A stretch of DNA of 64,000 nt. Origin: Klebsiella pneumoniae (GTDB taxonomy: Bacteria > Pseudomonadota > Gammaproteobacteria > Pseudomonadales > UBA5518). Of the stretch, positions 8,026 through 64,000 are shown in pieces. The translations under genes were made by a program, and so were the position numbers. The notes beneath the pieces were generated by a model. That model did no database searches. It was not told the origin of the DNA and saw nothing but the letters and a program-made list of their open reading frames with translations. The DNA is taken from contig CAMAXE010000008.1 of the NCBI GenBank assembly GCA_945862145.1, forward strand, positions 1-64,000, given 5' to 3'. How positions within the stretch are numbered: the stretch's first letter is position 1; every line of letters begins with the position of its first letter.

Positions 8026-8035
8026 GGCGCGCTCC

Positions 8036-9280: not shown

Positions 9281-9580
9281 GGCATTGCCCTTGGTGGCTG
9301 ATGAATTGAAACCGGGCCTACCGTTCCATCCTACTATGCGGCAGGCATCCGGCGCAGTCACGATGGCGACACCGCTGATATGCGGTCGGCGCGGCGCTGT
9401 TCGTTCGAAAGCGCTGCATGTCGTAGGTGACGAAATGGCGAACGGACCTCGGGGCCCCCTGCAGCGCCCGGGGGTTTAGCACCTCGATTACCGCGTGCCC
9501 GAAGTCGTCTGTGCTTTGCGCAGGAAGGGCTGTACCCTCCTGCGCTCAATCTCCAACCATAACAGTAGGGAGTGCCTGCA

Positions 9581-12968: not shown

Positions 12969-14690
12969 GTGCAAGATTCCATTTCCCTGCTGCAGGAAAT
13001 CCTCGGACCGTTGATCGGTGGTCTGGGCTTGTTCTTTGTTGGCGTGAAGATGATCGGTGCCAACCTGCGGCTGCTGTCTGGCCCGCGACTGCGTCAACTT
13101 GTGGCGTCGAGCGTCTCCTCAGCATGGCGCGGTAGCGCACTCGGCACTCTCTCGGGCGCCATAACCCAAAGCTCAAGCGCAATCACACTGATCCTGAGCA
13201 ATATGATTGCGGCCAACCTCATGAGCGTGGCGCAGGCCATGCCGATCGTGGCGTGGGCCAACGTGGGCACCTCGGCGCTCGTGTTGGCCTCCACCGTTGA
13301 CATCCGGATTCCCGTTTTTTATCTGCTTGGCCTGATCGGCGTCTCATATTTTTTCGATGTCGATAACTCGACGCGTTACCGGCACATCGCCGGCGCCATG
13401 CTGGGCGTCGGACTGGTGTTTCTGGGGCTGCAACTGCTTCACGCCGGCGCGATACCCCTGCGGGAATCGGAAGACTTCCGACAGGCGCTGCTCCTGACGG
13501 CTCGTTTCGACAGCCTGCTGGTGATCGCGGCGCTCGTCGTGGCGATGCTGCTACAGTCTTCGTCCACCGTGTCGGCAATTGCCGTGACCATGACCGTGGC
13601 CGGGCTGCTCACGCTGGAGCAGACCACCCTGATCATTTACGGCGCCTCGGCGGGATCCGGGCTCGGCGCCTTGCTTCTGTCGGCCTCGAGCAAGGGCGCA
13701 GCACGGCAGTTGGCCCTGATCCAGGCGATAACGAAGGTGCTCGGATCGCTACTCATGCTGGTGCTGCTGGTGGTGGAGAAAACAGCCGCCGTGCCACTTG
13801 TGCTCGCGCTGCTGTCGGTGCTCACGCCGGTGACCGCCCTGCAAGCGGCATGGGCCTTCCTGCTCACGCAGATCGCCGGTGTGCTGCTCGGCAGCATCCT
13901 TGCCCCGCTCCTGCTTCGCGCTGCGGCCAGGATGTCGCCGCCCACCCGTCGAGAGACACTCTCAAAGCCGCGCTACCTGAGCGAGGAGTCCCTGGGCGAT
14001 GCGGAGTCTGCGATGGATCTGGTGGAACTGGAACAGACCGGTCTGCTGGAACACCTGGGCGCATACCTCTCCGAGGCGGATCCCGCCCCGCAAGAGGGTG
14101 CTGCTGCCACCATGGTCTACGGCTTACCCGCTCGGGAACTCGCGGCAGCGGATGCTGCAGTAGCCGAGGAGATCAGCCGTTCCCTCGGCACACTCGCCAG
14201 TCATAGGCATGAGAGTTCAACGGTCAATCGCCTGCTGGCGCTGCAGAACCGGCAACGGCTGGTGGCCGATCTCTCGGGAGCAGTGCTGGACCTCGAGGTC
14301 GCCCTGCAGAGAATTCCTGCGCTCGAGGATGCCAACCGCGAGTTCTGCCTCGGGATCAGAGCGGGCATTCGCGAGTCCGCCCACTTCCTGCTGTCGACGC
14401 TGCATGAGTGCGCTGCCACGGGCAGTCCGGATGAGCTCTTCATGCTGCAGCAACTCACCGGAGATCGCAGCAGCACCATGGACTCCCTGCGCAAGCGGTG
14501 GCTTGACGAGGCCTCGAATACGGGACAACAGATGCTCGATGCCCTTTTCAGTGCCACCGCCTTGTTCGAAAGGACAGTCTGGATCATCGGACGCTACGTG
14601 AGCACACTATCCCCCCCGACAGGACACGCGGAGCAACCTCTGTCATCCTGGGCGCCGCGCGCCGCGGGCCATGCGGAGGCTGTCGCCTAG
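12969..14690 (+). CDS. Na/Pi cotransporter family protein with PhoU-like C-terminus (paralogue 1)
   Basis: A 573-residue membrane protein. GTG start; no strong ribosome site. The membrane half (about 1-320) carries two inverted PNaS repeats, each with the QSSS signature: GAITQSSSAITLIL near residue 65 and AMLLQSSSTVSAIAV near residue 195. Several more hydrophobic helices follow. The cytoplasmic half (about 320-550) is helical and PhoU-like (MDLVELEQTGLLEHLGAYLSE, EISRSLGTLASHRHESS). It probably imports phosphate (or another anion) with Na+. A close paralogue is at 35355-37016, identical in architecture. Confidence 0.88.
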   Translation: MQDSISLLQEILGPLIGGLGLFFVGVKMIGANLRLLSGPRLRQLVASSVSSAWRGSALGTLSGAITQSSSAITLILSNMIAANLMSVAQAMPIVAWANVGTSALVLASTVDIRIPVFYLLGLIGVSYFFDVDNSTRYRHIAGAMLGVGLVFLGLQLLHAGAIPLRESEDFRQALLLTARFDSLLVIAALVVAMLLQSSSTVSAIAVTMTVAGLLTLEQTTLIIYGASAGSGLGALLLSASSKGAARQLALIQAITKVLGSLLMLVLLVVEKTAAVPLVLALLSVLTPVTALQAAWAFLLTQIAGVLLGSILAPLLLRAAARMSPPTRRETLSKPRYLSEESLGDAESAMDLVELEQTGLLEHLGAYLSEADPAPQEGAAATMVYGLPARELAAADAAVAEEISRSLGTLASHRHESSTVNRLLALQNRQRLVADLSGAVLDLEVALQRIPALEDANREFCLGIRAGIRESAHFLLSTLHECAATGSPDELFMLQQLTGDRSSTMDSLRKRWLDEASNTGQQMLDALFSATALFERTVWIIGRYVSTLSPPTGHAEQPLSSWAPRAAGHAEAVA

Positions 14691-30677: not shown

Positions 30678-31208
30678 TCAAGCTGTCTGAGAGGCTGCGC
30701 GCAGCGCCGAAAAATCCGCGATCACGCGGTCGGGCGAGCAGGATTCGATCGGCTCCCCCATGTTGTAGCCGTAAGGCAGCGCCCAGACTTGCACGCCCGC
30801 ATTGCGCGCTGTGGCCACATCGATGGCGGAATCACCCACGAAGAGCGCGCGTTCGCGGCGGGTACGGAAGTCGCGCAGGCAGGATTCAACGCCCACAGGA
30901 TCAGGTTTGCGCGCCGGGAAGGTGCCACAGCGCCGCGCATAGTGTCCGGAGAACAGGTGTTCGATGGCCTCGAAGCGCTCCGAGACGCGCACCGCAGCGA
31001 TATCTTCCTGCCAGATCTAGGCAAGCGCCTGCGCCAGCAGTTCGCGGGTGCCACGGCCGATCCAGGCGTTTACCTGCTCTTGCGACACCGGGGCGAGTCC
31101 ACAGGAGTCCATGGTGTCGTTCACGGCATCCATGATCTCGGGCGAGGTCTCGAGCAGGGTGCCGTCGAGATCGAAGAGCACCAGGTCCCAGGCGCGCTCC
31201 GAACTCAC
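30678..31208 (-). pseudogene. cbbZ: Phosphoglycolate phosphatase, broken (TAG stop and internal deletion)
   Basis: A HAD-family phosphatase gene read from GTG 31208. The first 63 codons give WDLVLFDLDGTLLETSPEIM (motif I) and VNAWIGRGTRELLAQALA, then TAG at 31019-31017. The same frame continues after the stop with IWQEDIAAVRVSERFEAIEH, then FSGHYARRCGTF joins directly to PARKPDP and SCLRDF, ERALFVGDSAIDVATARNAG (motifs III/IV) and LPYGYNMGEPI. Functional Gph/CbbZ proteins have roughly 50-60 more residues between RRCGTF and the KPDP motif, including motif II. So one nonsense change and one in-frame deletion are present. Its start codon overlaps the transketolase stop (GTGA), the mark of an old operon. 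Confidence 0.85.
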
Positions 31209-33232
31209 GCGAGCAGGTCTTTCACGGCCCGCACCACGGCGGCGGCAGTGACGCCAAAATGCTGGTAGAGATCCTTGGCGGGTGCTGACTCACCGAAGGC
31301 AGCGACACCCACGATAGCGCCCGTGCGACCGGTGTACTTGTGCCAGAAGTCCGGTTGCGCGGCCTCCACGGCCACGGTGGGCAGGCGCAGCGGCAGCACG
31401 GCGTCGCGGTAGCTCTGGTCCTGCCGGTCGAAGGCGTTGGTGCAGGGCATCGAGACCACGCGTACCGAGATGCCCTCGGCCGCAAGCTGCTCGCGGGCTT
31501 CCATCGCAATGGATAGTTCCGATCCGGTGCCGATCAGCACCGCGCGCGCATCGACCGCATCGGCCAGCACGTAGCCGCCCCGGCGGATGCCCTCGACATG
31601 CGCAGTTTCGGTGAGCCGCGGCAGGTTCTGGCGCGACAGGCAGAGCGCGCTCGGGCCCTCGCGGCGCTCCAACGATGCGGCCCAGGAAACAGCCGTTTCC
31701 AAGCCATCGGCGGGGCGCCACACATCGAGGTTCGGGATGATGCGCAGGCTCGGCACCTGCTCGACGGCCTGGTGCGTGGGGCCGTCCTCGCCCAGACCTA
31801 TCGAGTCGTGCGTGAAGACGTGGATCACGCGCTGTTTCATCAGTGCGGCCATGCGGATGGCGTTGCGGCTGTAGTCGCTGAAGGTGAGGAAGGTGCCGCC
31901 GTAGGGAATGTAGCCCCCGTGCAGCGCCATCCCGCTCATGATCGCGGCCATACCGAACTCGCGCACGCCATAGCTCAGGTGATTGCCCCAGGTGTCACGG
32001 CCCGCGCGCACGCAGCCCTTGAAGCTGGTGAGGTTGGAGGCGGTTAAGTCGGCGCTGCCGCCGAAGAACTCCGGCACCAGTGGCGCCAGTGCGTCCAGCG
32101 CGTTCTGGCTCGCCTTGCGGGTGGCCACGGCCTCGGGCTTGGCGGCGATGGCAGCCAGCGTGTCGGGTAGTTGTTGCGCGAAGGCGGGCGACAAATCGCC
32201 GCGCATGCGGCGCTCGAACTCGGCCGCCTCGGTGGGGAAAGCCTGGCGGTAGGCCTCGAATTGTTGGTCCCATGCGCTTTGGCGCGCGGCGCCCGCGGCG
32301 CGCGCGTCCCAGGCCGCGGCGATATGGGCCGGGATTTCGAAGGGTGGGGCCGTCCAGCCGAGCGCCTCCCGTGTGGCGGCTACCTCGGCGGCACCGAGTG
32401 CGGCGCCATGCACATCGTGGGTGCCCGCCTTGTTCGGCGAGCCCTTGCCGATCACGGTGCGGCAGCAGATCAGTGTGGGCTTGCCGTCGGGGTGCGCGGA
32501 CTGCGCCTTGGCGGCCAGCAAGGCGGCTTCGACGGCCGCCGTATCGTGGCCGTCGACGGCGGGGATCACGTGCCAGCCGTAGGCCTCGAAGCGCTTGGGC
32601 GTGTCATCGGTGAACCAGCCCTCGACGTGGCCGTCGATGGAGATGCCGTTGTCGTCGTAGAAGGCGACCAGTTTGGCGAGCCGCAGCGTGCCGGCGAGCG
32701 AGCAAACCTCGTGGCTTATGCCCTCCATGAGGCAGCCGTCGCCCATGAAGGCGTAGGTGTGATGATCAACGATGGCGTGGCCGGGGCGGTTGAACTCGGC
32801 GGCGAGCAGCGATTCGGTGAGCGCCATGCCCACGGCATTGGCAAGGCCTTGGCCCAGGGGCCCGGTGGTGGTTTCCACGCCCGGGGTGACCCCCACTTCC
32901 GGGTGGCCGGCGGTTTTGCTGTGCAATTGGCGGAAGCGTTTGATCTCGTTGATCGGCAGGTCATAGCCCGTCAGGTGCAGCAGCGAGTAGACCAGCATTG
33001 AGCCGTGGCCGTTCGAGAGTACAAAGCGGTCGCGGTCGGCCCAGTGCGGGTTGGCCGGATTGTGCTTCAGGTGGCGGTTCCACAGCACCTCGGCGATCTC
33101 GGCCATCCCCATGGGCGCGCCGGGATGGCCGCTCTTGGCGGCTTCCACGGCGTCGACCGACAGCATACGGATGGCGTTGGCCATCTCGCGGGCGAGTGCA
33201 GGCTCTGGGGCTTGGCTGTGGCTCGTGGTCAT
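31205..33232 (-). CDS. cbbT: Transketolase
   Basis: A 675-residue, full-length transketolase. Motifs: [18 protein letters not shown] and [19 protein letters not shown] near the N-terminus, [13 protein letters not shown], the ThDP site [13 protein letters not shown] ending in [10 protein letters not shown], and in the second domain [36 protein letters not shown] and [18 protein letters not shown]. It transfers two-carbon units in the pentose-phosphate and Calvin cycles. It sits 30 bp after the phosphoribulokinase remnant and overlaps the broken cbbZ start, so it was cbbT of a cbb operon. The intact frame suggests it now serves general metabolism (tkt). Confidence 0.93.
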
Positions 33233-33262: not shown

Positions 33263-33637
33263 TCAGCTATGGCCGAGGGCGCGCTTCCTGCGCTCCACCA
33301 TCCGCCAGATGAAGGGCATGAAGATGAGCTGCATCGCAAGTTCCATCTTGCCCCCGGGCACCACGATGGCATGCGTGCGCTCATTCAGGAGCCGTCGATC
33401 ATGTTAGGGCGGTACCGGAAATCGGCACCCTTCGGCCACGCGAAGCGTATCACCACCATGCTCTCATCGGGACTGGGAATATCCCGCGAAATGAACGGGT
33501 TGGAGGTATCCACTACCGGCATGCGCTGGAACCTGACGTGCGTGTGGTGAGCTGCGGGCAGATGATGTTCAGGTAGCCGGGCAGGCGCCGCAGGATGGTG
33601 TCGGTCACGGCCTCGTTGTCGGCGCAGTTCGAGCGCT
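33263..33637 (-). pseudogene. cbbP: Phosphoribulokinase remnant (5'-truncated, two frameshifts)
   Basis: Three frames in succession encode the C-terminal third of proteobacterial phosphoribulokinase: SNCADNEAVTDTILRRLPGY then NIICPQLT; after a 1-base loss near 33547, THVRFQRMPVVDTSNPFISR and DIPSPDESMVVIRFA to MIDGS; after a second net -1 shift near 33385, THAIVVPGGKMELAMQLIFM and PFIWRMVERRKRALGHS before the stop. The VDTSNPF and VVPGGKMELAMQLI runs are distinctive for PRK. The catalytic P-loop and ribulose-5-phosphate site are absent (5' deletion). Frame alignment was by eye from family knowledge. Confidence 0.88.
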
Positions 33638-33746
33638 ACTTGCCTGCGGCACCCGCAAAGCCCGATGCTAGTCGGCGCCCGTCGGTCGCACCATCGTCCG
33701 GGCGCGCCGCTGCCACGATCCGTGCAATTGACCAAGGAAAACGCCC

Positions 33747-35354: not shown

Positions 35355-37016
35355 ATGAACCCCGAGGCCGTGTCGGTCAGCGAAATTCTCGCCTCGCTTT
35401 TTGCCGGCCTGGGGCTGTTTTTTATCGGTGTAAAACTGATCGGCTCCAATCTGAAGCGCCTCTCGGGTCCGCGCATGCGCCGCCTCGTGGAGGTCGCCGT
35501 GCGCAGCCGCGCACGCAGCAGCGTGCTCGGTACGCTGGCCGGCGTGATGACGCAGAGCTCCAACGCTGTCACGTTCATCCTCTCGAGCATGGTCGCGGCG
35601 GGGCTGCTCGATGTCCGCCGAGCGATGCCAGTGGTGGCCTGGTCAAGCGTGGGCACCTCTGCGCTGGTGCTGCTCGCCACGGTCGATATCCACATTGCCG
35701 TCCTGTACCTGCTGGGCGTGATCGGTATGGCTTATTTCTTCGACATCGAGGCATCGCCGCGCTACCGCGACGCCGCGGGTGCTGCGCTCGGCACGGGGCT
35801 GCTGTTCCTGGGGCTGCAGTTGATCCACGAGGGCGCGCAGCCGGCGGGCGAACTTGAGGGATTGCGGATGTATCTCGATGCCCTCTCGGAGTTCGAGATA
35901 CTTCTGCTGCTCGCCAGCGTTGCGGTCACGATAGTGCTGCAGTCCTCGTCCACCGTCTCGGTGATCGCCGTCACCATGGCGGGGGCGGGGCTGCTCGACC
36001 TGGAGCAGGCGCTGGTGTTGATCACCGGCGCCAATGCGGGCTCGGGCCTCAGCGTGCTGCTGATGTCGGCGGGGCAGGTGGGCAGCACGCGACGGCTCGC
36101 GTTGGTGCAGGTCGAGACCAAGCTCGTGGCGAGCCTGATGTGCCTCCTGCTGTTGTTCGCGGAGCGCTATCTGGGCGCGCCCGGCGTGATGGCTCTGGGT
36201 CACGCGGCCGGCTTGGGCACGCCCGCCGCTCACGGCGCCGCGTATTTCGTGGCGCTGCAACTCACAGGCGCGCTGCTCGCAATGGCCTTCGATGGCACGT
36301 TTCTCGCGCTCGCCGGACGCTTCTCGCCCGAGAGCCATCAGGAAACCCTGGCACGCCCGCGCTACCTCTACGCGCAGGCGCTGGAGGAGTCCACCACCGC
36401 GCTCGAACTGCTGGAACTCGAGCAGACGCGCCTGCTGGGGCACGTAGGGTGTTATCTGTCCGAGGCCGAGCCCTCGGCTCGCCTGCTCGCCGAAGAGCCC
36501 GCTGCCAACCACGCTGCGGCCCCGGAACTGGCCGAGGCCGATGCCCAGGTCGGCGCGCAGGTGGCGAGATTCATGGGCGCCCTGGCCGATCGTTATCACG
36601 ATGCCCACACAGGCCAGCAGCTGCTGCGGCTGCAGGAGCGACTGCGCAGCATTCAGGAACTGGGCGCGGCCGTGCGCGAGCTGGATACCTGGCTCCTGCG
36701 CATCGACACCATCGAGGACCCGAACCGTGAACACTGCGTGAACCTCAAGGTGCAGGTCCGGGAGTCCTGTCATTTCCTGTTGGAGATGTTGTATGACACG
36801 ACGGCCTCGCGCAGCGACGAGGATCTCGCCATCCTCGACCTGCTGGTCCACGACCGCAGTGAGGTGATGGACGGCCTGCGCAAGGGCTGGATGCAGCAGG
36901 CCGCCACCACCGGTCAGCCGATGCTCGAGGCCCTGTTCGCCGCCACCTCGCTGTTCGAGCGCTCGGTGTGGATCGTGCGGCGGGTCAGACAGACGCTGCG
37001 GGCGGCTGCGGCCTGA
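35355..37016 (+). CDS. Na/Pi cotransporter family protein with PhoU-like C-terminus (paralogue 2)
   Basis: A 553-residue paralogue of the transporter at 12969. The N-terminus LFAGLGLFFIGVKLIGSNLK closely matches the other copy. The first repeat motif is GVMTQSSNAVTFIL (QSSN in place of QSSS), and the second is IVLQSSSTVSVIAV. The C-terminal half is PhoU-like (LELLELEQTRLLGHVGCYLSE, VRESCHFLLEML). It probably carries phosphate or a related anion with Na+. The upstream gene is a small membrane sensor; the combination differs from paralogue 1, which stands alone. Confidence 0.87.
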   Translation: MNPEAVSVSEILASLFAGLGLFFIGVKLIGSNLKRLSGPRMRRLVEVAVRSRARSSVLGTLAGVMTQSSNAVTFILSSMVAAGLLDVRRAMPVVAWSSVGTSALVLLATVDIHIAVLYLLGVIGMAYFFDIEASPRYRDAAGAALGTGLLFLGLQLIHEGAQPAGELEGLRMYLDALSEFEILLLLASVAVTIVLQSSSTVSVIAVTMAGAGLLDLEQALVLITGANAGSGLSVLLMSAGQVGSTRRLALVQVETKLVASLMCLLLLFAERYLGAPGVMALGHAAGLGTPAAHGAAYFVALQLTGALLAMAFDGTFLALAGRFSPESHQETLARPRYLYAQALEESTTALELLELEQTRLLGHVGCYLSEAEPSARLLAEEPAANHAAAPELAEADAQVGAQVARFMGALADRYHDAHTGQQLLRLQERLRSIQELGAAVRELDTWLLRIDTIEDPNREHCVNLKVQVRESCHFLLEMLYDTTASRSDEDLAILDLLVHDRSEVMDGLRKGWMQQAATTGQPMLEALFAATSLFERSVWIVRRVRQTLRAAAA

Positions 37017-50734: not shown

Positions 50735-50887
50735 CGTGTTTCGGCCGACACCGCGCTGCGGCTCGGCAAGTACTTCGGGGTGTCGCCGCAAACCTGGATG
50801 GGGCTGCAAGGGGAGTACGACCTCCGGGTAGCGCAGCGGCTGATTGGCCCGGAATTGGAAAAGCGTGTTCACCGGCATGCTGCCTGA
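50735..50887 (+). pseudogene. higA: HigA-family antitoxin, N-terminally truncated
   Basis: Fifty codons encode RVSADTALRLGKYFGVSPQT then WMGLQGEYDLRVAQRLIGPE and a short tail to TGA. SADTALRLxxxFGxSPxxWxxLQxxYDL is the second half of the HigA XRE-type HTH domain. The first half with the recognition helix start is missing. Both halves of the toxin-antitoxin pair are therefore broken. Confidence 0.8.
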
Positions 50888-50952
50888 TCGACGAATTACT
50901 GCAGCCATGAAGCGTAACTGGGTTCTCAGGTAATCCCCCCAGAACGATCCTT

Positions 50953-52053
50953 TCATAAACCGGACTTTCCCCTCGCCAACGCATCCGCCCTGATCACCCC
51001 GTGCCCCGGAATCACTGGCAAATCGAGCGCCGAGAGAATGCCTGGCGCTGCCGCGCACACGGCGGGAATGGCGTTCAACACGCGCATGCCGGTGGCAAGA
51101 CAGCCGCCGCCGTTGCCATCACCCGTGTCGGCATCCGAGAGCACGGTTTCCTGCAGGATGCTGGGGCGACCGATGATCTCGACGCGGTTGGCGTGCGTGT
51201 CGTCGATGCGCGGGCGCGGCCACTCGGGCGCGGCATCGGGGTAGAGGCGGTGGATGTGGTCGATGATGATGCGCGGCTCGCCGCCCACGATGCCCTGCAG
51301 CTCGATGCGGTGCGCCGCGGCCTCGCCCGGCAGCACGCGGCCCTGCGCGAAGTCCACCGCGCGATCGCCCGCCCAGCGGGTGTAATTCTCCTGCGTGCGT
51401 TCGATCTGCACGCCCACGGCCTGCGCGATCATGTAGAGCGGCCCGCCCCAGATGCCCGTCATCATGCCGGGGTTGGCGAGCAGGGGCGGGGTTTCGTCCA
51501 TGCGTGAGTAGAGCCCCATGAAGCGCAGGCTCGCCTGATCCGGGTAGCTGCCGCCGTCGATGAACTCCGTGGTGCGCACGCTGCTTACCTGCCCGCAGAG
51601 GCCGAGAAGCGTCATGGGGAAGAGATCATTGGCAAAGCCCGGATCGATGCCATTGCTCAGAAAGCTGGTGCCGCCCGCCGCGCAGGCGCGCGTGATGCGC
51701 TCTTTGTATTCCGCCGGGATCAGCGGCGGGTAGTGGAAGATGCCCATGCTGGTATCCACCACGTTCTTGCCCGCGCGCAGCGCTGCCTCGATGTTCGCCA
51801 TGTTGGCTTCGGCGTGCATCATGTTCGGGCCGAAGTAGGCCACGGCATCGGCCTGCCGCGAGAGCACTTCTGCCACGTTGCACGAGGCGATCACGCCCGT
51901 GCGCGGCATGCCCACGATGTCGCCCACGTCGAGCCCGTCCTTTGCGGGGTCGTGCACCAGCACGCCGGCGATCTCGAAGGCGGGATGACCGACAAGGCTT
52001 TTGAGCACGGCTTTGCCGACGAAGCCGGTGCCCCAGAGGATTACGCGGTGCAT
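50953..52053 (-). CDS. DapB-like NAD(P)H-dependent amine dehydrogenase/dihydrodipicolinate reductase-family protein
   Basis: A 366-residue Rossmann oxidoreductase. The start at 52053 has AAGGA upstream. HRVILWGTGFVGKAVLKSLV is the nucleotide-binding motif; DVGDIVGMPRTGVIA, VAYFGPNMMHAEANMANIEA and NVVDTSMGIFHYPPLIP follow the DapB_N/2,4-diaminopentanoate dehydrogenase type, as does GTSFLSNGIDPGFANDLFP in the substrate domain. It probably reduces or oxidises an amino or imino group on a small substrate, but no pathway partner is adjacent. Confidence 0.78.
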   Translation of the reverse strand: MHRVILWGTGFVGKAVLKSLVGHPAFEIAGVLVHDPAKDGLDVGDIVGMPRTGVIASCNVAEVLSRQADAVAYFGPNMMHAEANMANIEAALRAGKNVVDTSMGIFHYPPLIPAEYKERITRACAAGGTSFLSNGIDPGFANDLFPMTLLGLCGQVSSVRTTEFIDGGSYPDQASLRFMGLYSRMDETPPLLANPGMMTGIWGGPLYMIAQAVGVQIERTQENYTRWAGDRAVDFAQGRVLPGEAAAHRIELQGIVGGEPRIIIDHIHRLYPDAAPEWPRPRIDDTHANRVEIIGRPSILQETVLSDADTGDGNGGGCLATGMRVLNAIPAVCAAAPGILSALDLPVIPGHGVIRADALARGKSGL

Positions 52054-52252
52054 GGAGGGTTCCTTGAGTGCGGTGGTCGTGGCCCGGTGTTGGGGCGTCA
52101 GCGGCAATATGCCAGACGGGCGAGAAGAATCGAAACGTCGATTGCCCGTCAAAGCGGCCGTGTGCGTGGGAAGGAGGCCGGGGCGTCGAGAATCTCAGGC
52201 GGCCTGCCTGCTCATGATCGGCAGGTCGCGGTTTCCAGTTCTGGGAGCCCCA

Positions 52253-52560
52253 TCACCGTCCCGCATTGACGAAACGCCTGAACTCCTTGTCGACAAAAAA
52301 GCCCTCGCGATTGGGCATCTTCACCTGTGGCAGGGAGTGCTGGTCGAGCACCGCATCGGGAGGCAGGATGCCGTTCAGGTGGAGGATATAGGCCGACACT
52401 GCATAGGTGTCGTCAACGCTCAGGGAGCCCGAGGCCCAGTAAGGCATCGCCCGATGGATATAGTCGAAAAGCGTTGTTGCATAGGGCCAGAAACTGCCCA
52501 CCGTCTTGACCGGTGCGGGAGTGGCAAGCGAGCCGGCGTCCGTTTTTCCCACGCGTCGAT
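52253..52560 (-). pseudogene. soxD: Truncated sulfur-oxidation cytochrome (SoxD C-terminal part)
   Basis: About 100 codons read SLATPAPVKTVGSFWPYATT then LFDYIHRAMPYWASGSLSVD, TYAVSAYILHLNGILPPDAV and SLPQVKMPNREGF. KTVGS(F/Y)WPYATTLFDY..RAMP....SL..D..YAV.AY.LHLNGI and LPxVKMPNR-GF are characteristic of the C-terminal cytochrome domain of SoxD (sulfur dehydrogenase). The CxxCH haem site lies before this part in the family and is absent here, so the protein is non-functional. No other sox genes are in the window. Confidence 0.75.
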
Positions 52561-52570
52561 CCCCCTGCAA

Positions 52571-52960
52571 GAGCGTCTCAGAGCCGCAGCAAAGCCAGGG
52601 TGGCTATGGACGGGTGCAACCTCGACGGCCACGGTTAACAGTCCGCGCCGTCCGAAGCTTGCCGAAGCTTGCCGAAGCTTGCCGAAGCTTACAACTGTCG
52701 AGCGCTCCGGTCCGGTCGCAAGGTTCGGCAAGCTTCGAGCTGACAAGTGTGGTCAAGTTGTTCAGAGATCCTGTCGAGGCAGAAACCTGGAAGCTCGCCG
52801 CGCCCCGGTTTCTTTATCTAGACCGGAACTGGCGGGGATTATGCGGGGAGCACGCCGGACCTGACTGAGACGCGGGCCCGAGGCCATGCGAGCGATCCCT
52901 GCGGAATCGATTCAGTGGAGCGGTGCGTTTTTTCGTACAGCGGACTCATAAGGGGGCGTG
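52571..52960. other. 390-bp intergenic stretch with tandem and inverted repeats
   Basis: Apart from the 10-bp tandem repeat at 52651-52690 and its inverted echo at 52723-52738, no gene is seen. The end of this stretch is the leader of the di-heme enzyme, whose ribosome site AAGGGGG is at about 52948-52954. Confidence 0.5.
52651..52690. repeat. Four tandem 10-bp units (GCCGAAGCTT)
   Basis: The units are TCCGAAGCTT followed by three GCCGAAGCTT in perfect phase. Each contains an AAGCTT palindrome. An inverted copy, TTCGGCAAGCTTCG, occurs about 35 bases downstream (near 52723-52738), so strands could fold into hairpins. The 10-bp period equals about one helical turn, which would line up four sites on one DNA face. 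Confidence 0.85.
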
Positions 52961-54226
52961 ATGAGAAAGTTATTGTTGCTCGCAGCAGGCGTCGGTATCG
53001 GCATGGTAATGGTCGCTCAGGGAGCCAGCGCCGGATCGGGTCAGCCCGCGCAGGGAGCTGGCGCTCCGCCCGGTCATGCGCTGCAGGGCGACCGCCTTTT
53101 CGACACGGAGACATTCGGCGGCAATGGACGAACCTGCAGCACCTGCCACAGCAAGGCCAGCGGCACGGTGTCTCCGGCTGATGCTCTGCAGCGGTTTCTG
53201 AACAACGAGGCAGACCCACTGTTTCTGCTTGACGGCAGTGATGACGGCCACGGTAACGGCGTCAGCAGGATGCTCCGTGACGCGACCATTCTCATGGAGA
53301 TCCCGCTGCCGCCGACTGTCTGGCTCTTGGACAGCACAGGAGGTATTTCGCAAGACGAAAGAGTCGTCGTTGTCCGACGGGGTATTCCGACCACGCTCAA
53401 CACGCCCGCACTCGACCCCGTGCTGATGTTGGACGGGCGGAACCCCACGCTGGAGTCGCAGGCCAGGGGCGCCATCCTCGATCACGCGCAAGGCAGGGAG
53501 CCCTTGCCTGAGGAACTCGCAGCCATTGTGGCGTACGAGAAGACCAATGCGTTCTTCAGCTCGCCGGTGCTCCGCCGCTTTGCCCTCCAGCGCGGCCCTG
53601 AGCCCGTCTTGCCTCAAGGCAGGACCGCGTCCGAGAAACGTGGACGGCGCTTCTTCGAGAGTGTTCCGCCCCCTGGCCCTGATAGCCAGAACCCCGCCGA
53701 GGACATCAAGCGTGGGCTCTGCGGGCACTGCCACAGTGGTCCGCTGCTCAATCAGACCAACGAGTTTGCGGAAGCGTTCACGGCACCGGCGGACAGGGTC
53801 ATTGCGGCGGGGGAACGCTTTTCAAACATCGGGGTCTCGGAGGCCAACGCGGGGCTGAACCCGGTCCAAAGCTTCATCGTCACGATCGATGGCAGATATC
53901 CGGACCACACGCCCGATGGAACGACAAAGACGATACGAGTAGACAGCCCGGACCTGGGCCGTGCGCTCATCTCCGGCAACTTCGATATCGACCACGACGG
54001 CGATATCGACAAACAGGACCTGCTGTTCGGGGAAATCGGCGCGTTCAAGATCTCTGCGCTGTGGGGTATCCGCAAGACGGCGCCGTACTTCCATGACAAC
54101 TCCGCGAAGACACTGGAGGACGTCGCTGCGCATTACATGGCGATGTTCCTGGAGCGCAGTGACGGGTTCATCGCGCTGACGCCCCGGGACGAGCAGGACA
54201 TGGTCGCCTACATGAAGTTGCTGTAA
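52961..54226 (+). CDS. Di-heme cytochrome c peroxidase-like (MauG/CcpA family) protein
   Basis: A 421-residue periplasmic protein with signal peptide (LLLLAAGVGIGMVMVAQGASA). The ATG at 52961 is preferred over the GTG one codon earlier for spacing to AAGGGGG. Two haem sites: NGRTCSTCHSKASG (about residue 51) and GLCGHCHSGPLLNQ (about 253). An Asp-rich DGDIDKQDLLFGEIGAFK segment and a C-terminal ALWGIRKTAPYFHDNSAKTLEDV follow, as in the CCP/MauG family. It may reduce peroxide or catalyse another di-haem redox reaction. Confidence 0.85.
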   Translation: MRKLLLLAAGVGIGMVMVAQGASAGSGQPAQGAGAPPGHALQGDRLFDTETFGGNGRTCSTCHSKASGTVSPADALQRFLNNEADPLFLLDGSDDGHGNGVSRMLRDATILMEIPLPPTVWLLDSTGGISQDERVVVVRRGIPTTLNTPALDPVLMLDGRNPTLESQARGAILDHAQGREPLPEELAAIVAYEKTNAFFSSPVLRRFALQRGPEPVLPQGRTASEKRGRRFFESVPPPGPDSQNPAEDIKRGLCGHCHSGPLLNQTNEFAEAFTAPADRVIAAGERFSNIGVSEANAGLNPVQSFIVTIDGRYPDHTPDGTTKTIRVDSPDLGRALISGNFDIDHDGDIDKQDLLFGEIGAFKISALWGIRKTAPYFHDNSAKTLEDVAAHYMAMFLERSDGFIALTPRDEQDMVAYMKLL

Positions 54227-54344
54227 GCGCCGGCTCCGTGGCGAGGCGAGTTTCTGGCTGCTTCGTGTCGCTGACGCACCACGGCAGGAAGTGCCGATCG
54301 CCTACCGGCTGCGCTCGCGCGCGATGAGCGTCTACCATTGCGCG

Positions 54345-56186
54345 ATGAGACTGTCCTTGCATGTCGTGTTGCTACTGAGCGGGATCCTGGGCCTTGCGTC
54401 GGGACCGGCGGCGGCCACAGATCTGGTTGTCGAGCGCGCGTATTTCGAGGATGCGAGCGGTCTCATGGGCTTCGAAGAGGTGCAGCGCATGCCCTTTACG
54501 CCCGCTAGCAAGGTCATCAGCCGTGGCTTCACCCGCTCTACGTTGTGGGTGCGGCTGACCGTCAACCAACCCGTGACAGACCTGCCGCTGATCCTGAGCG
54601 TGAAGCCTGCCACGCTGGCTGAGGTGATGCTTTTCTCCGCCAGCGCGGTGGGGGCCGCCTCCCTGCCCGGCATCGAACTGCACCCGCCGCGCCTGTGGCG
54701 GCACGAATGGGTGGACACGACACCCGGCGCGCAGGTTCGCTACCTGCGGATCCGCGCGATCGGCGCCATGATCGTCTTGGCGGAGGTCGCCACCGAGCCC
54801 GATGCTGCCAAGTCCGAGGCCGATCGCAGCGTATTCCTTGGTTTGGTGCTGGGCTGCACGCTGTCGATCATGTTGGTCGGGCTGATGGTGCTCGCGATCG
54901 GGCGTGAGCCCATGGTGCTGGCAGGGCTCGCCTCCCTGCTGGGCTCCATTCTCGTTTATGCGCAGATGTTCGGTCACTTGCACGATTTCGCGCCTGTCGA
55001 TGCGGTGCTGAACCGTGGAAGGGCCCTGTATCTGAGCTCGATGATGAACATGACGGGTGGCTACCTGATGATCTATTTCATCCTGGCCAAGAGTCATATG
55101 CCGCGCTGGGGGCGCTGCGTGACGACTGCGCTTGGCGCCGTGCTGCTGACGTTGATGATGGCCGCGTTCGTGGCCGATCTTCAGGCGATCCACCGGCTGG
55201 CTTTCATCTTGATGCTGGCCGGCTGGCTGTTGCACTGCCCGCTGTGCCTCTGGGCGCCGCGCGTGATCGGCCCACGGAACTGGTTCATCCGTACAGTAAC
55301 GTTTGTGATCAGCCTGGCCGCGCTGCGAGTCTGTCTGCAACAGCTCGGCTGGATGCAGCCCAATGACTGGGCGCTGGAGCTGTTTGCGTGGCGCACACTC
55401 GTGAGCCCCTTGGTCTTTTGCCTGATCATCGGGATGCTGGAGCTGGAGCGGCGCGAGCGGACAGGCCTCGCGGTGGCAGGGGAGAAATCAGCCCGTGAAG
55501 AGGCCGCGTTGGCCAGCGAGCGGCGCAGCCTGCAGGAACGGCTGGTCACCACGCTGATGCACGAGATCAAGACGCCGCTGTCGACTATCCAGTCAGCGGC
55601 GGCATCCTTGAATCGCGGAGCCAGCGACAACGAGGCGCACAGCAAGCGCATCCAGAGCATCCAGCATTCAGTCGATGACCTGAACGCGCTGGTGGAGCGC
55701 TATGTGCAGGTCGACCAGCTCGAGCAGGACGGCCTTCAGCTCCACACCCAATACTTCTCGCTCGCAGACCTGTTGGCAGACCTCAGGGAAAGCCTGGACG
55801 ACGACACCATTGTGGTCAGCGGCGACCCGAACCTGCTGGTCAAGATCGACTACCTCGGCGCGCGCGTGATCCTGCTGAACCTGCTGGGCAATGCGCGCAA
55901 GTATTCGCCGCCCGGTGGGGCAGTGCGCGTCGAGATCGAGCCCGCTGAGAGGCAAGGCTGCTCCGGGCTAAGGATCCGGGTGAGCAATGAGATCGGCGTG
56001 GCAGGGGTGCCCGATCCACTCAAGGTGTTTGCGCGATATTACCGCTCGGAGGGGGCGCGCCGGATATCGGGTGCCGGACTCGGACTGTGGCTGTCGCAGC
56101 AAACCGCAGGTGCCATGGGCACCGATATCCTCTGCAGCGCCGACGACGCCAGGGTGTGCTTTGACCTGTGGCTGGAGAGCGCATGA
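54345..56186 (+). CDS. Sensor histidine kinase with 7TMR-DISM sensor
   Basis: A 613-residue kinase. The start at 54345 opens a signal peptide (LHVVLLLSGILGLASGPAAA); ribosome sites are weak for all starts. A periplasmic 7TMR-DISMED2-type domain (about 20-165) is followed by seven helices (about 170-375), a short coiled linker, the H box in TTLMHEIKTPLSTIQSAAAS, and a HATPase domain with the N box LLNLLGNARKYSPPGG and GAGLGLWLSQQTAGAM. The usual DxGxGI box is replaced by SNEIGVAGVPDPLKVFARYY. The stop overlaps the start of the response regulator (ATGA), so the two form one operon. Confidence 0.88.
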   Translation: MRLSLHVVLLLSGILGLASGPAAATDLVVERAYFEDASGLMGFEEVQRMPFTPASKVISRGFTRSTLWVRLTVNQPVTDLPLILSVKPATLAEVMLFSASAVGAASLPGIELHPPRLWRHEWVDTTPGAQVRYLRIRAIGAMIVLAEVATEPDAAKSEADRSVFLGLVLGCTLSIMLVGLMVLAIGREPMVLAGLASLLGSILVYAQMFGHLHDFAPVDAVLNRGRALYLSSMMNMTGGYLMIYFILAKSHMPRWGRCVTTALGAVLLTLMMAAFVADLQAIHRLAFILMLAGWLLHCPLCLWAPRVIGPRNWFIRTVTFVISLAALRVCLQQLGWMQPNDWALELFAWRTLVSPLVFCLIIGMLELERRERTGLAVAGEKSAREEAALASERRSLQERLVTTLMHEIKTPLSTIQSAAASLNRGASDNEAHSKRIQSIQHSVDDLNALVERYVQVDQLEQDGLQLHTQYFSLADLLADLRESLDDDTIVVSGDPNLLVKIDYLGARVILLNLLGNARKYSPPGGAVRVEIEPAERQGCSGLRIRVSNEIGVAGVPDPLKVFARYYRSEGARRISGAGLGLWLSQQTAGAMGTDILCSADDARVCFDLWLESA

Positions 56187-56926
56187 ACACAGCAACGTCT
56201 GAAGTGCCCTCCGTTATCCTCGTGGAGGATAACGAGCGGCTGCGCGAGGAACTGGTGCATTACCTGAGCGAGGAGGGCTTCTCGGCCCGCGGCGTGGACA
56301 GCGGTGAGGACTTGAACCGCGCGCTCGAGCAGCAACTGGCCGACATCGTGGTGCTGGACCTGAACATGGCGCAGGAAGATGGCCTGAGCATCACCCGGCG
56401 CATCCGCCGCGCGCTGCCGGGCCTCGGTGTGATCATCCTCACCGGGCGGGTGCGCAGCAGGGAGCGGCTAGAGGGCTATCTGAGCGGCGCCGATGTGTAC
56501 CTGACCAAACCCACCCGCCCCGACGAGCTGTCGGCGGTGATCCGGAACCTGTTTGCACGCCTCGCGCCGCCGAAGTACGTGGAACAGTGGCAGCTCGACA
56601 TGGCGCTGATGGTTCTCATGACCCCGGCCGGTGGACAGATCGCGCTCACCGGCACCGAGGCGCGTCTGCTCAAGGTGCTGGCGCTGCACGGGCACTGCAT
56701 CGAGCACTCGGCATTGGTCTGGCAGGTGGGTGACCCCGAGCAGTCCGAGGCCGTGAACAAGGCGCGGATCGAGGTGGCGGTGAGCCGCCTGCGCCGCAAG
56801 CTGCGCCAGCATGCCGGCGCACGGGACTGCATCAAATGCCAGCGCCACGTGGGTTACCAGCTGGGTATTGCCGTGACGCTCGTGAATCTGGATGTCGGGC
56901 TGCCCAGCCGCGGGCCTGGGGATTGA
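56183..56926 (+). CDS. OmpR/PhoB-type response regulator
   Basis: A 247-residue regulator. ATG at 56183 overlaps the kinase stop by 4 bases and has GGAG upstream. The receiver has ILVEDNERLREELV, VVLDLNMAQEDGLS (phospho-acceptor Asp), IILTGRVRSRE (Thr) and VYLTKPTRPDEL (Lys). The C-terminal winged helix reads ALTGTEARLLKVLALHGH, then SRLRRKLRQHAGARDCIKCQ and RHVGYQLG. It is probably activated by the adjacent 7TM kinase; target genes are unknown. Confidence 0.92.
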   Translation: MNTATSEVPSVILVEDNERLREELVHYLSEEGFSARGVDSGEDLNRALEQQLADIVVLDLNMAQEDGLSITRRIRRALPGLGVIILTGRVRSRERLEGYLSGADVYLTKPTRPDELSAVIRNLFARLAPPKYVEQWQLDMALMVLMTPAGGQIALTGTEARLLKVLALHGHCIEHSALVWQVGDPEQSEAVNKARIEVAVSRLRRKLRQHAGARDCIKCQRHVGYQLGIAVTLVNLDVGLPSRGPGD

Positions 56927-60285: not shown

Positions 60286-60358
60286 GGCTCGGGGGCACCG
60301 CGCGGTGCCGGTACATTTTCGTTGGCCAGAAGGCGGGGCTTCATGCCGCGGCCATGCC

Positions 60359-60580
60359 TCACGCCACGTAATCCTCATCCCGTAGCACGTCAGACGCGAA
60401 TGCAAACACTGCGTGCAGGGCCGCTGGCGACAAGTTTGGATAGGAGCGATAAAGGTCCTGTTCGGACCAGCCGTCGGCGAGTCGCTCCAGAACGAGTTGC
60501 ACCGATACGCGCGTGCCCTTGATCACCGGCTTGCCTGCCAGCACCTCGGGGTCAGAAACGATATGGTCTCGCCAATTCAT
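60359..60580 (-). CDS. DUF433 antitoxin, orphan (copy B)
   Basis: A 73-residue protein; GGAGG 6 bases before ATG 60580. HIVSDPEVLAGKPVIKGTRV then SVQLVLERLADGWSEQDLYR and SYPNLSPAALHAVFAFASDV is a complete DUF433 (VapB45-like, homeodomain-like) sequence. Such proteins normally overlap a DUF5615 PIN-like toxin gene downstream. Here the downstream minus strand is occupied by the end of the convergent membrane protein gene, and no toxin is seen, so the antitoxin is orphaned. Confidence 0.85.
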   Translation of the reverse strand: MNWRDHIVSDPEVLAGKPVIKGTRVSVQLVLERLADGWSEQDLYRSYPNLSPAALHAVFAFASDVLRDEDYVA

Positions 60581-60702
60581 GATGGCCTCCGTTCGAGTCC
60601 CGATTACTACGTGCTGCGAAACTGGCCTTTGCCAAAGACCATTGCTCGTCGCGTGCCATGCTATACGAGAAACTTTCCTCTCGACACGCTCCAACATCGG
60701 TT
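60581..60702. repeat. Toxin-antitoxin leader, copy B (homologous to 58666-58793)
   Basis: The 5' leader of the DUF433 gene. Similarity to copy A is spread over its whole length and includes TTTCTC-G-TATA, a possible -10 region, and the ribosome site with the first nine coding bases. Mismatches suggest an old duplication. Confidence 0.65.
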
Positions 60703-60720
60703 ACGTCCTCGTCGGCCCAA

Positions 60721-60825
60721 GAGGGCAACGCGCTCTACTTCGACACCACACTTCATGCGACGGGAGATGATCGTGCCTTCCTAGCCCATGCTTCGGGGTG
60801 GTATGCCCTGGTGCTGAGCGCCTGA
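60721..60825 (+). pseudogene. Addiction-module antidote remnant (copy B)
   Basis: Frame EGNALYFDTTLHATGDDRAF then LAHASGW to a stop. It aligns with AAHFDAVLEEAGDDPAFIAH of the antidote at 58934, including GDD-x-AF-x-AHA. The start and HTH are both missing. It is divergent from the DUF433 gene as its fuller relative is divergent from the copy A remnant. Confidence 0.62.
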
Positions 60826-60870
60826 ACCAGGTACGTTTCGAGCGTTAAACATCTTCGGGCTGGAGGCGTC

Positions 60871-62790
60871 ATGGAACGAGCACCGCCTTACGACGGGTGC
60901 GGATGGACATCCGATCTTCCTACTTTTTCGGGGTCCGAACCCCGGATTATTCGGGCCAGTCTGCAGGGCTTTGTGCGGGATGCCTCGCCCGAGCAGATCA
61001 AGGCGTGGGACGCGTCCATTCCCTGGCTTCAGAATGAATGTCGGGAACTGGAGGCACGTGACCATCAGGCCCGGGAATACACAGCCATCCTCGAATACGA
61101 GTTGCCGAGGGATTTCCGTCGCCCCGACGTGATCGTTCTGCAACGAGGGTGCGTCGTTGTGCTGGAGCTTAAGGGGGCTTTGCACCCGAGTCGCGGAGCG
61201 CTGGACCAGGCCTGGGGGTACGCGCGGGATCTGGCCGCTTACCACAGTGCGTGCGCTGGCAATGATGTGCAGCCCGTGCTCGTTACCCGGGGAGGACCTT
61301 CGACACCCACCCTTGTGGACCGCGTTCACCACGTTGGTCCGGCGGGGCTGGACGCCCTTCTTTTTCGGTTGGCACAGTCGGACTCACCTGCGGTGTCGGC
61401 CGACGCGTTTCTCAAGCCCGATGCCTATGCGCCCTTACCCACGATCGTCTCGGCGGCGCGGGAGCTGTTTCACAAGCGGCCATTGCCCCTGATCAAGCGC
61501 GCACGCGCTGCGACTGAGCCAGCTCTCGAAGCTATCACCGCCATTGCACATGAGGCGGCTCGCACCAGAACGCGACGGTTGGTACTGCTGAGCGGCGTTC
61601 CCGGCTCAGGCAAGACATTGGTGGGGCTGCAACTCGTGCATGCGGGGTGGCTAGACGATCTCGCCCTGCAGAGGGGAGGACTCAAGCCTGCTGCCGCTGC
61701 GGTGTACCTGTCAGGAAACGGTCCGTTGGTGGCGGTGCTGCAAGATGCATTGAGCGAAGGAGGCGGCGGAGGGCGCACCTTCGTGCAGGACATCAAAAAG
61801 TACGTGAAGCAGTACGGAGCCCGTCAGCGCGCCGTTCCCCCGGAGCATTTGATCGTTTTCGACGAGGCTCAGCGCGCCCACGACCGCGAGCGTGTAGCTG
61901 AGGTCCACAAAACTCCCTTGGGACAATCCGAGCCTGAGCATCTGATCGAGTTCTGCGAGCGAATCCCGGAGTGGTCGGTGCTCGTTGCATTGATCGGTGA
62001 TGGACAGGCTATCCACGTCGGCGAGGAAGTTGGCGTACCCCTGTGGGCGCAAGCGGTGTCGAAGGCCAGAGAGCGTGACAGGTGGATGGTCCATGCCGCG
62101 CCGGCCCTGTTGGAGCACTTCGGCAATTGCGGTGCCGCTATCGATTCAGATCGTACGCTCAGCCTCGATACCGAAATCCGCTTCCACCTCACGCCCAAAG
62201 TCCATCAATGGGTCGCAGGGCTACTGGGAAGAGCCCCTGCGGCCTCGCTCTCGCCCTTGGGTGACGAGTTGTTCGCGGGTGGACATCGGTTTCTCGTTAC
62301 GCGTGATCTCTCTGTCGCGAAAGCCTATTTGCACGAGCGCTATGAGGGGGCCCGAGAGGCGCGCTACGGAATGCTTGCGTCTTCCAAAGACAAGTGGCTG
62401 CCGGGGTTCGGTGTCGACAATACCTTCCAGACCACCAAGCGGTTGAAGGTAGGAGCCTGGTACAACTCGAAACCGGGTAGCGAGGATTCCTGCTGCGCGC
62501 TGCAGACCGTGGCCACCGAATTCGCCTCGCAGGGGCTTGAACTGGACTGCGCGTTGCTGGCTTGGGGATCTGACCTGCTGTGGACCGAGACAGGTTGGAC
62601 GATTCGATACTCCGGCGGCACCAGAAGCCCGCTGCGCGACCCGCTTGCCGTCCGGAAGAATGTGTATCGGGTGCTGCTCACGCGCGGACGGGATGGGACG
62701 GTGATATTTGTGCCGCCTGATGAGAGGATGGACGAAACGTACGCCCGATTGATCTCGTCAGGAGTATCTCCCCTGGATCCTGATCGCTGA
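60871..62790 (+). CDS. DUF2075 helicase with N-terminal PD-(D/E)xK-like nuclease region
   Basis: A 639-residue protein. Residues 1-200 contain RRPDVIVLQRGCVVVLELKG, a good PD...(D/E)xK nuclease core. The DUF2075 ATPase begins at LVLLSGVPGSGKTLVGLQL (Walker A, about residue 235) and LIVFDEAQRAHDRERVAE (Walker B DEAQ), followed by LIGDGQAIHVGEEVG (motif III), LDTEIRFHLTPKVHQWV and a late QGLELDCALLAWGSDL with RVLLTRGRDGTVIFVP (superfamily 1-like motifs V/VI). Such proteins are found in defence and mobile-island contexts. The lead is close to broken toxin-antitoxin genes. Confidence 0.82.
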   Translation: MERAPPYDGCGWTSDLPTFSGSEPRIIRASLQGFVRDASPEQIKAWDASIPWLQNECRELEARDHQAREYTAILEYELPRDFRRPDVIVLQRGCVVVLELKGALHPSRGALDQAWGYARDLAAYHSACAGNDVQPVLVTRGGPSTPTLVDRVHHVGPAGLDALLFRLAQSDSPAVSADAFLKPDAYAPLPTIVSAARELFHKRPLPLIKRARAATEPALEAITAIAHEAARTRTRRLVLLSGVPGSGKTLVGLQLVHAGWLDDLALQRGGLKPAAAAVYLSGNGPLVAVLQDALSEGGGGGRTFVQDIKKYVKQYGARQRAVPPEHLIVFDEAQRAHDRERVAEVHKTPLGQSEPEHLIEFCERIPEWSVLVALIGDGQAIHVGEEVGVPLWAQAVSKARERDRWMVHAAPALLEHFGNCGAAIDSDRTLSLDTEIRFHLTPKVHQWVAGLLGRAPAASLSPLGDELFAGGHRFLVTRDLSVAKAYLHERYEGAREARYGMLASSKDKWLPGFGVDNTFQTTKRLKVGAWYNSKPGSEDSCCALQTVATEFASQGLELDCALLAWGSDLLWTETGWTIRYSGGTRSPLRDPLAVRKNVYRVLLTRGRDGTVIFVPPDERMDETYARLISSGVSPLDPDR

Positions 62791-62822
62791 CTCAATTCTG
62801 ATGGTCTGAAGGCTGCTGCTTG

Positions 62823-63701
62823 TCAGCAGTAGACCTCGGAAGATGGTGACGGCTGGCCTCTGAGGCATACAGGTTGAACCGAGGCATCAGATGAATCGGA
62901 ACGATAAGCGCGTTTTCTGCGGTAAGTGACGGGTATCTCTCTCTTTCTCCGCGCACACGTTACGGCACGGGGACGCTGTTCGAGCTTAGGCGTCGAAGCG
63001 GTAACATCGATGTGCCCTGTCGTTGGGGCGTCCAAAGGCTCGACAGGCTCGGGTCTGCGTGAACGTGCCGCTTTTTCGATCGCTTCCTCGCGCCCGGTTC
63101 GACCCGGAATCGAGGCTTTTGGTTCAGGGCGTGGCACCGAGAGATGAACTGAAGATTCCGCTATGAACGTTGCGAGTATCGATCCATCTTCTCGGTCGTA
63201 TTTGAAGCGGTACTGGTCCCCACGTGCATCCGTCACCGCACCCTTGGCTTTGCTGAGAGAAGCCTCATTCGCGAACGCGCTTGCGTAGCGTAGGTGTTCA
63301 AGAAGGTCTTTCATTGCTTCCGGTTTGTGGTGCTGCAGCAGTCGTGTCCCGGCGTGATGTGTGACACGACCCTGTAGCGCTGCGAGCGTGATAGTCGCGC
63401 CTCCGCGCCCGTCACGCCTGACGTCGAGTTGATACGTAAAGAGCCGCCTGTCCATGCCTCCGAGAAACCGGCACTGCCAAAGGAGGTTTTTCTCAATGCC
63501 GTCGTTCACGCCTATGACGAGGTGTTTCAGGGCCTTTTCGGTGAAACGCTGTATGTCCCGCAGGGATGTGATGTTGGGCAGTGTCTCGTTCAGATACAGC
63601 GTTCGGTCTGCCACATAGTCGAAAACGTTCGTCACGACACGACCGGCGTGTCTCTGGGTGTAGTCCGGAGGAATGATGTCGAGGCGGGTTCGTCTACTCA
63701 T
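62823..63701 (-). CDS. Unrecognised protein, convergent with the DUF2075 gene
   Basis: A 292-residue, probably cytoplasmic protein; ATG at 63701 with AAGGGG 11 bases upstream. The N-terminal 180 residues look folded (RVVTNVFDYVADRTLYLNET, FTEKALKHLVIGVNDGIEKN, FTYQLDVRRDGRGGATITLA). The C-terminal 100 residues are Arg/Pro/Ser-rich and probably disordered and basic (VTYRRKRAYRSDSSDASVQP). I do not recognise the family. It ends 33 bp from the convergent DUF2075 gene, so a shared function is possible but only by position. Confidence 0.6.
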   Translation of the reverse strand: MSRRTRLDIIPPDYTQRHAGRVVTNVFDYVADRTLYLNETLPNITSLRDIQRFTEKALKHLVIGVNDGIEKNLLWQCRFLGGMDRRLFTYQLDVRRDGRGGATITLAALQGRVTHHAGTRLLQHHKPEAMKDLLEHLRYASAFANEASLSKAKGAVTDARGDQYRFKYDREDGSILATFIAESSVHLSVPRPEPKASIPGRTGREEAIEKAARSRRPEPVEPLDAPTTGHIDVTASTPKLEQRPRAVTCARRKREIPVTYRRKRAYRSDSSDASVQPVCLRGQPSPSSEVYC

Positions 63702-63796
63702 GGTGTTTGTTGCCCCTTCGCGTTGCGGTGAGTGAAGCCAAAAAAGGTGATTCGGAGGTCAGTGTTTGCGTGCTTGCCTGGGGCAGGCTCGGTGGA

Positions 63797-64000
63797 TCAC
63801 CACCCTCCCACCTCCTCCATCTCCACCCGATGCACCGGGCACATCGGCGGCCCGTACTGCAGATAGCGCTTCGGGATCGACAGCTGATACCCGCAGGTGC
63901 CGCAGCGCGCACGCGGCGGGTCTGCGGGGCGCGGCCGAGGGGGTTTGCGGGCGAGCGTGCCGTGGGGAAAGGGCCCGATGTCTGCGGCTATGCGCGTGAG
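63797..64000 (-). CDS. Zinc-ribbon protein, C-terminal part (5' end outside window)
   Basis: The minus-strand frame is open from the window edge to TGA at 63797, giving 67 residues. A Pro/Arg-rich stretch is followed by RCGTCGYQLSIPKRYLQYGP then PMCPVHRVEMEEVGGW, with CxxC...C (and His) arranged as a zinc ribbon. It could be the tail of a SprT-like or similar metal-ribbon protein, but the core is missing. Confidence 0.55.
   Translation of the reverse strand, partial: LTRIAADIGPFPHGTLARKPPRPRPADPPRARCGTCGYQLSIPKRYLQYGPPMCPVHRVEMEEVGGW

Follow-up and report, generated by a model that had tools for sequence, protein, structure and literature searches.

A short open reading frame on the reverse strand of the 64,000-nucleotide stretch analysed here (the window), at 52253-52570 (105 residues), is very probably the scar of a recent deletion through a stand-alone soxC-soxD pair. 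Judged from family, active-site motif and gene context, what was lost was probably a second molybdenum-cytochrome enzyme of the periplasm, of the sulfite-dehydrogenase-like kind, and not the sulfane dehydrogenase that takes part in thiosulfate oxidation. The process is ordinary gene loss, or genome decay, in an unusually well resolved form. Together with its surroundings, the locus preserves a stepwise record from one uncultured genus: an intact CO2-fixation (CBB) operon in one species, a deletion common to two others and, in one of these two, a later deletion of soxCD. The preliminary description had proposed a chemolithoautotrophic ancestor in which thiosulfate oxidation and CO2 fixation decayed while sulfite oxidation was kept. 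The parts of that history concerning the retention of sulfite oxidation and the loss of autotrophy hold; the thiosulfate part does not.

Identity of the SoxD fragment

The best start of the frame is a GTG at 52552, from which it extends for 99 codons. When compared with the PDB by phmmer, the fragment matches a single solved structure, the SoxD chain of Paracoccus pantotrophus SoxCD (2xts chain B, E 5.9e-28). Fragment residues 12-95 align with residues 67-150 of this chain, giving 84 residues of typical SoxD sequence. No NCBIfam profile matches the fragment and Pfam yields just one sub-threshold cytochrome match; the identification comes from the PDB and from genome relatives, not from profile databases. 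The matched region corresponds to the latter half of the first haem domain, a domain that makes up the entire protein in short one-haem SoxD relatives. The specific C-terminal SoxD pattern described earlier is thus confirmed as SoxD, but the match does not lie at the C-terminus of the canonical protein with two haems. The frame contains no CxxCH haem-binding motif anywhere in 52253-52570, as had been noted from the start. Unlike P. pantotrophus SoxD, the remnant is devoid of a haem motif, and the intact protein related to it is of the short type with one haem. In a SoxD tree the fragment is nested among SoxD proteins, so that both the tree and the PDB match point to SoxD and not to an unrelated cytochrome family. 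The genome of the window (G000; 4.375 Mb searched, 51 contigs, completeness rated 100%) contains no second sequence of this kind.

A deletion seen against a sister genome

The closest relative of the fragment (92% identity) lies on a contig of an uncultured gammaproteobacterial metagenome-assembled genome (locus L010, contig C189 of G005) that belongs to the same genus. This sister contig aligns with window positions 50744-56565 at approximately 96-97% nucleotide identity in the main blocks. Where the window has the fragment, the sister contig carries an intact soxC (425 aa; 483 bits against TIGR04555, cut-off 420) followed by an intact soxD (180 aa). The corresponding features of the window are as follows.

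50953-52152, reverse strand: left flank, diaminopentanoate-dehydrogenase-like gene, which adjoins soxCD in the sister too
52253-52534, reverse strand: portion of the remnant that derives from SoxD, corresponding to residues 88-180 and the stop of the 180-aa sister protein; no haem motif
52535-52552, reverse strand: first six soxC codons (GTG GGA AAA ACG GAC GCC), joined to the SoxD tail without a change of frame (base-level alignment with L010)
54291-56186, forward strand: right flank, gene for a sensor histidine kinase, likewise conserved in the sister

Base-level alignment with L010 resolves the difference into a single deletion in the window, which is 1,507 bp shorter than the sister from soxC codon 7 through SoxD residue 87. 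The junction falls at 52534/52535, where the deletion ends overlap by 2 bp (GG microhomology) and the join is in frame. The deletion took the molybdenum subunit, the signal peptide for export and the haem site, the latter a CAACH motif at residue 67 of the sister SoxD. Beyond the six remaining codons, no soxC partner is left beside the fragment or elsewhere in the genome. A remnant stripped of molybdenum domain, haem site and export signal would almost certainly be non-functional. The SoxD-derived part retains 97% amino acid and 97.8% nucleotide identity to the sister gene. Because a sister with 96-97% identity still has both genes intact, the loss is recent. Three amino acid changes separate the two proteins over 93 codons (dN 0.014, dS 0.045), too few to distinguish selection from recency and too weak a signal to decide function.

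According to the proposed sequence of events, the common ancestor of G000 and G005 would have carried a stand-alone soxC-soxD pair between the dehydrogenase gene and the sensor-kinase gene. In the G000 lineage, one illegitimate deletion with a GG overlap would then have taken out everything from soxC codon 7 to SoxD residue 87, leaving the in-frame, 99-codon open frame. The loss may have been tolerable because the sulfite dehydrogenase SorAB remained.

Two points count against a scar: the loss in G000 is seen on one assembled contig, and the frame is still open. The strain could have an intact soxCD that a chimeric or collapsed contig conceals. Such an artefact is very unlikely: only 2 bp are common to the two ends, so that there is no repeat through which a misassembly could arise, the flanks on both sides follow the gene order of the sister, and no unassembled piece of soxC turns up elsewhere in a genome rated 100% complete. 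The open frame might instead still yield a small protein that has taken on a new function, in keeping with an in-frame fusion that preserves the start region of soxC, the lack of a stop over 99 codons, and the dN and dS values against the sister. This is barely credible given that signal peptide, haem site and molybdenum domain are all gone, that one join in three is expected to be in frame by chance, and that so few changes cannot tell selection from recency. The deletion scar is therefore the preferred reading. Among the loci examined, only G000 shows a stand-alone pair cut down in this way.

Stand-alone and sox-cluster SoxCD

The type of enzyme that was lost was approached through a comparison of 107 distinct SoxCD loci (L133, a repeat of L010, was counted once). 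In 94 of the 107, the pair occurs without soxY, soxA or soxB in the flanks examined, while the other 13 have such neighbours. This "stand-alone" status was judged within flanks of approximately 1-7 kb, with SoxY, SoxA and SoxB queries that all came from a single genome, G124, and the sox-cluster sample comprises one order plus Paracoccus. Every stand-alone SoxD has one haem motif and a length of 173-296 aa, whereas 9/13 sox-cluster SoxD proteins have two haem motifs and span 320-398 aa. Phylogeny, which the preliminary description had put forward as a check, groups the fragment with SoxD as expected, but within the stand-alone clade and apart from the sox-cluster clade. In the SoxD tree it pairs with L010 inside a set of 19 rows that otherwise consists of stand-alone pairs throughout (SH-aLRT 99). 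In the SoxC tree, L010 falls in a 17-row stand-alone clade (SH-aLRT 100) and the sox-cluster SoxC proteins form a clade of their own (SH-aLRT 100). The clade of the fragment and L010 includes stand-alone SoxCD pairs of Bradyrhizobium, Rhodopseudomonas, Bosea, Methylobacterium and Rhodanobacter. These pairs share the EC[ST]GN motif of L010, and soxY, soxA and soxB were not found in their examined flanks.

The active-site cysteine motif separates stand-alone from sox-cluster SoxC without exception: EC[STGA]GN is present in all distinct stand-alone sequences that could be read (93/93) and ECPANGGMEW in all 13 sox-cluster sequences. The SoxC of Paracoccus, a sulfane dehydrogenase, reads ECAANGGMEW. 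On this evidence, which for the active site comes from alignment, there is an even chance that stand-alone SoxCD constitutes a separate enzyme family with a sulfite-oxidase-like active-site loop (EC[ST]GN), distinct from the Sox-pathway sulfane dehydrogenase (EC[PA]ANGGMEW); current models label it soxCD, yet it would not be an indicator of thiosulfate oxidation. A lone match to soxC or soxD does not show thiosulfate oxidation. The sampled stand-alone and sox-cluster forms separate by tree, by gene neighbourhood and by a short active-site motif, a separation that could serve to correct the sulfur-cycle annotation of metagenomes.

The window also encodes a complete sulfite dehydrogenase, with both subunits at full length in tandem (7354-9361).

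7354-8025, reverse strand: intact sorB, cytochrome c subunit (NCBIfam SorB 93.7 bits, cut-off 93; dN/dS 0.31 against G005)
8036-9361, reverse strand: intact sorA, sulfite dehydrogenase catalytic subunit (NCBIfam SorA 620 bits, cut-off 600; dN/dS 0.17 against G005)

Both subunits exceed the NCBIfam equivalog cut-offs and both genes are under constraint, in agreement with the earlier statements that sorAB is complete and that sulfite oxidation was kept. SorA belongs to the same sulfite-oxidase superfamily as SoxC, and its active-site motif (QCSGN) has the C-S-G-N cysteine motif in common with stand-alone SoxC. The two enzymes differ in that SorA is ~30% identical to SoxC and SorB is a different cytochrome from SoxD.

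Search for a thiosulfate-oxidation pathway

All three core sulfur-oxidation pathways have SoxXYZAB in common, and the sulfur on which SoxCD acts is bound to SoxYZ (PMC6397845). Within the six genomes of the genus, SoxB (TIGR04486) is found in none, compared with 12 of the 146 genomes of the order that score above the cut-off. SoxZ (PF08770) is likewise missing from all six genus genomes, with four out of four soxB-bearing controls positive; nor was it found in two genomes with stand-alone soxCD. SoxA (TIGR04484) is not detected in G000 and is absent from 5/6 members of the genus, the cut-off being exceeded in three of the four soxB-bearing controls. For reverse Dsr sulfur oxidation, DsrA (TIGR02064) has no match in G000, a result without positive control, as no searched genome reached the cut-off. 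The genome of the window yielded no sox cluster, and the intact sister locus carries soxCD alone, with no sox neighbours.

At the edge of a 4-kb contig of another genus member, G003, lie the C-terminal 41 residues of a SoxA-like protein (L187, G003:C134:1-126). This tail could be contamination or part of an unassembled sox gene. It is not counted as a pathway because G003 has 6% contamination and neither SoxB nor SoxZ was found there.

The ancestor may nevertheless have been a chemolithoautotrophic thiosulfate oxidiser whose Sox system and CO2 fixation decayed together, leaving the soxD and cbb remnants and sorAB behind. The fragment is indeed SoxD, the loss of the CBB genes described below is real, and the SoxA-like tail of G003 could be taken as a relic of such a pathway. 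This history is unlikely when set against the absence of SoxB and SoxZ from all genus genomes, a sister locus with soxCD and nothing else of sox, and a SoxCD that is of the stand-alone type by both tree and motif. It also conflicts with the cbb genes having been lost before the split of G000 and G005 and soxCD after it, and with G003, where an intact cbb operon occurs without soxC. The claim of decayed thiosulfate oxidation is not supported, given the SoxB, SoxZ and SoxA counts, the clade of the lost pair and its different active-site motif. The scar is better read as the loss of a stand-alone soxCD.

Loss of the CO2-fixation operon

The cbb remnants that the preliminary description placed 20 kb from the fragment are genuine. 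Contig C572 of G003 (L097/L128) holds an intact cbbL-S-X-Y-F-P-T-Z operon in this order, where cbbF is fbp and cbbT transketolase, and the window is syntenic with it: cbbT, a broken cbbZ and the tail of cbbP are kept in the same order.

30678-31289, reverse strand: broken phosphoglycolate phosphatase cbbZ/gph, with a premature stop and a ~150-bp internal deletion (blastn gap against L128 5399-5552)
31205-33232, reverse strand: intact, retained transketolase at the cbbT position (Pfam full length; syntenic with L128 cbbT; dN/dS 0.08 against G005)
33263-33618, reverse strand: phosphoribulokinase cbbP remnant, ~residues 177-292, frameshifted, with an in-frame stop
33609-33646, no strand assigned: outer edge of the cbb deletion, matching L128 14652-14689, beyond cbbL (blastn)

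A tblastx comparison of the window with the first, shorter RuBisCO locus had given only noise; the synteny emerged with the larger stretch, L128. The window aligns to L128 from a Rieske gene via cbbZ and cbbT into cbbP and then jumps beyond cbbL, corresponding to a ~6.3-kb deletion. Hence both G000 and G005 have lost cbbL, S, X, Y and F as well as the beginning of cbbP. The breakpoint on the cbbP side lies at the same base in both genomes; on the other side, G005 keeps ~100 bp more. The cbbP tail of G005 (residues 176-293, 94% identity) is still open. Phosphoribulokinase is full length in G003 and reduced to a C-terminal remnant in G000 and G005, and the RuBisCO large subunit (PF00016) is present in G003 and missing from G000 and G005. 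CO2 fixation was thus lost, as had been supposed. The transketolase remains under constraint, and the intact copy of cbbZ lies at L128 5146-5838. Synteny with the window speaks against the G003 contig being a contaminant. Both RuBisCO subunits, large and small, are intact in one of the six genus genomes, on this G003 contig, where a gene for a LysR-type regulator also lies further along; this suggests that some members of the genus are autotrophic.

Order of events in the genus

The cbb deletion is common to G000 and G005, with the same cbbP-side breakpoint, so this loss most simply predates their split. The soxCD deletion is found in G000 only. Across the six genus genomes searched, soxCD and sorA were found in G000 and G005 only, and no soxC was found in G003. 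With the cbb genes lost first, soxCD later, and soxCD and sorA found in these two genomes only, the two remnants do not record the collapse of a single pathway, contrary to the earlier account. For these six genomes, soxCD and sorAB may either have been gained in the ancestor of G000 and G005 or lost elsewhere.

Surroundings of the fragment

A further gene lies between the fragment and the sensor kinase.

52958-54226, forward strand: MauG/di-haem peroxidase-like gene, missing at this place in the sister contig L010

This gene constitutes a second indel relative to L010, within a few hundred bases of the soxCD deletion. Immediately upstream of where soxC starts, at 52650-52690, a tandem 10-bp repeat (AAGCTTCGGC) is present in four copies in the window and six in the sister contig. 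A viral origin was looked for and no sign of one was found.

In another genome, G004, ~110 bp separate the left-flank gene from sequence that matches window position 60304, and therefore the whole 52.2-60.3 kb block is missing there or was never present. Window positions 60304-64000 are 97% identical in nucleotide sequence to G004 (L154), compared with only 89% for the gene at 50971-52171; a recent exchange between this region and G004 is possible. A gene with a Schlafen-group-3 helicase domain (60871-62790) lies within the part common to G004. Elsewhere, the window contains two genes of the Na+/phosphate cotransporter family, at 12969-14690 and 35355-37016.
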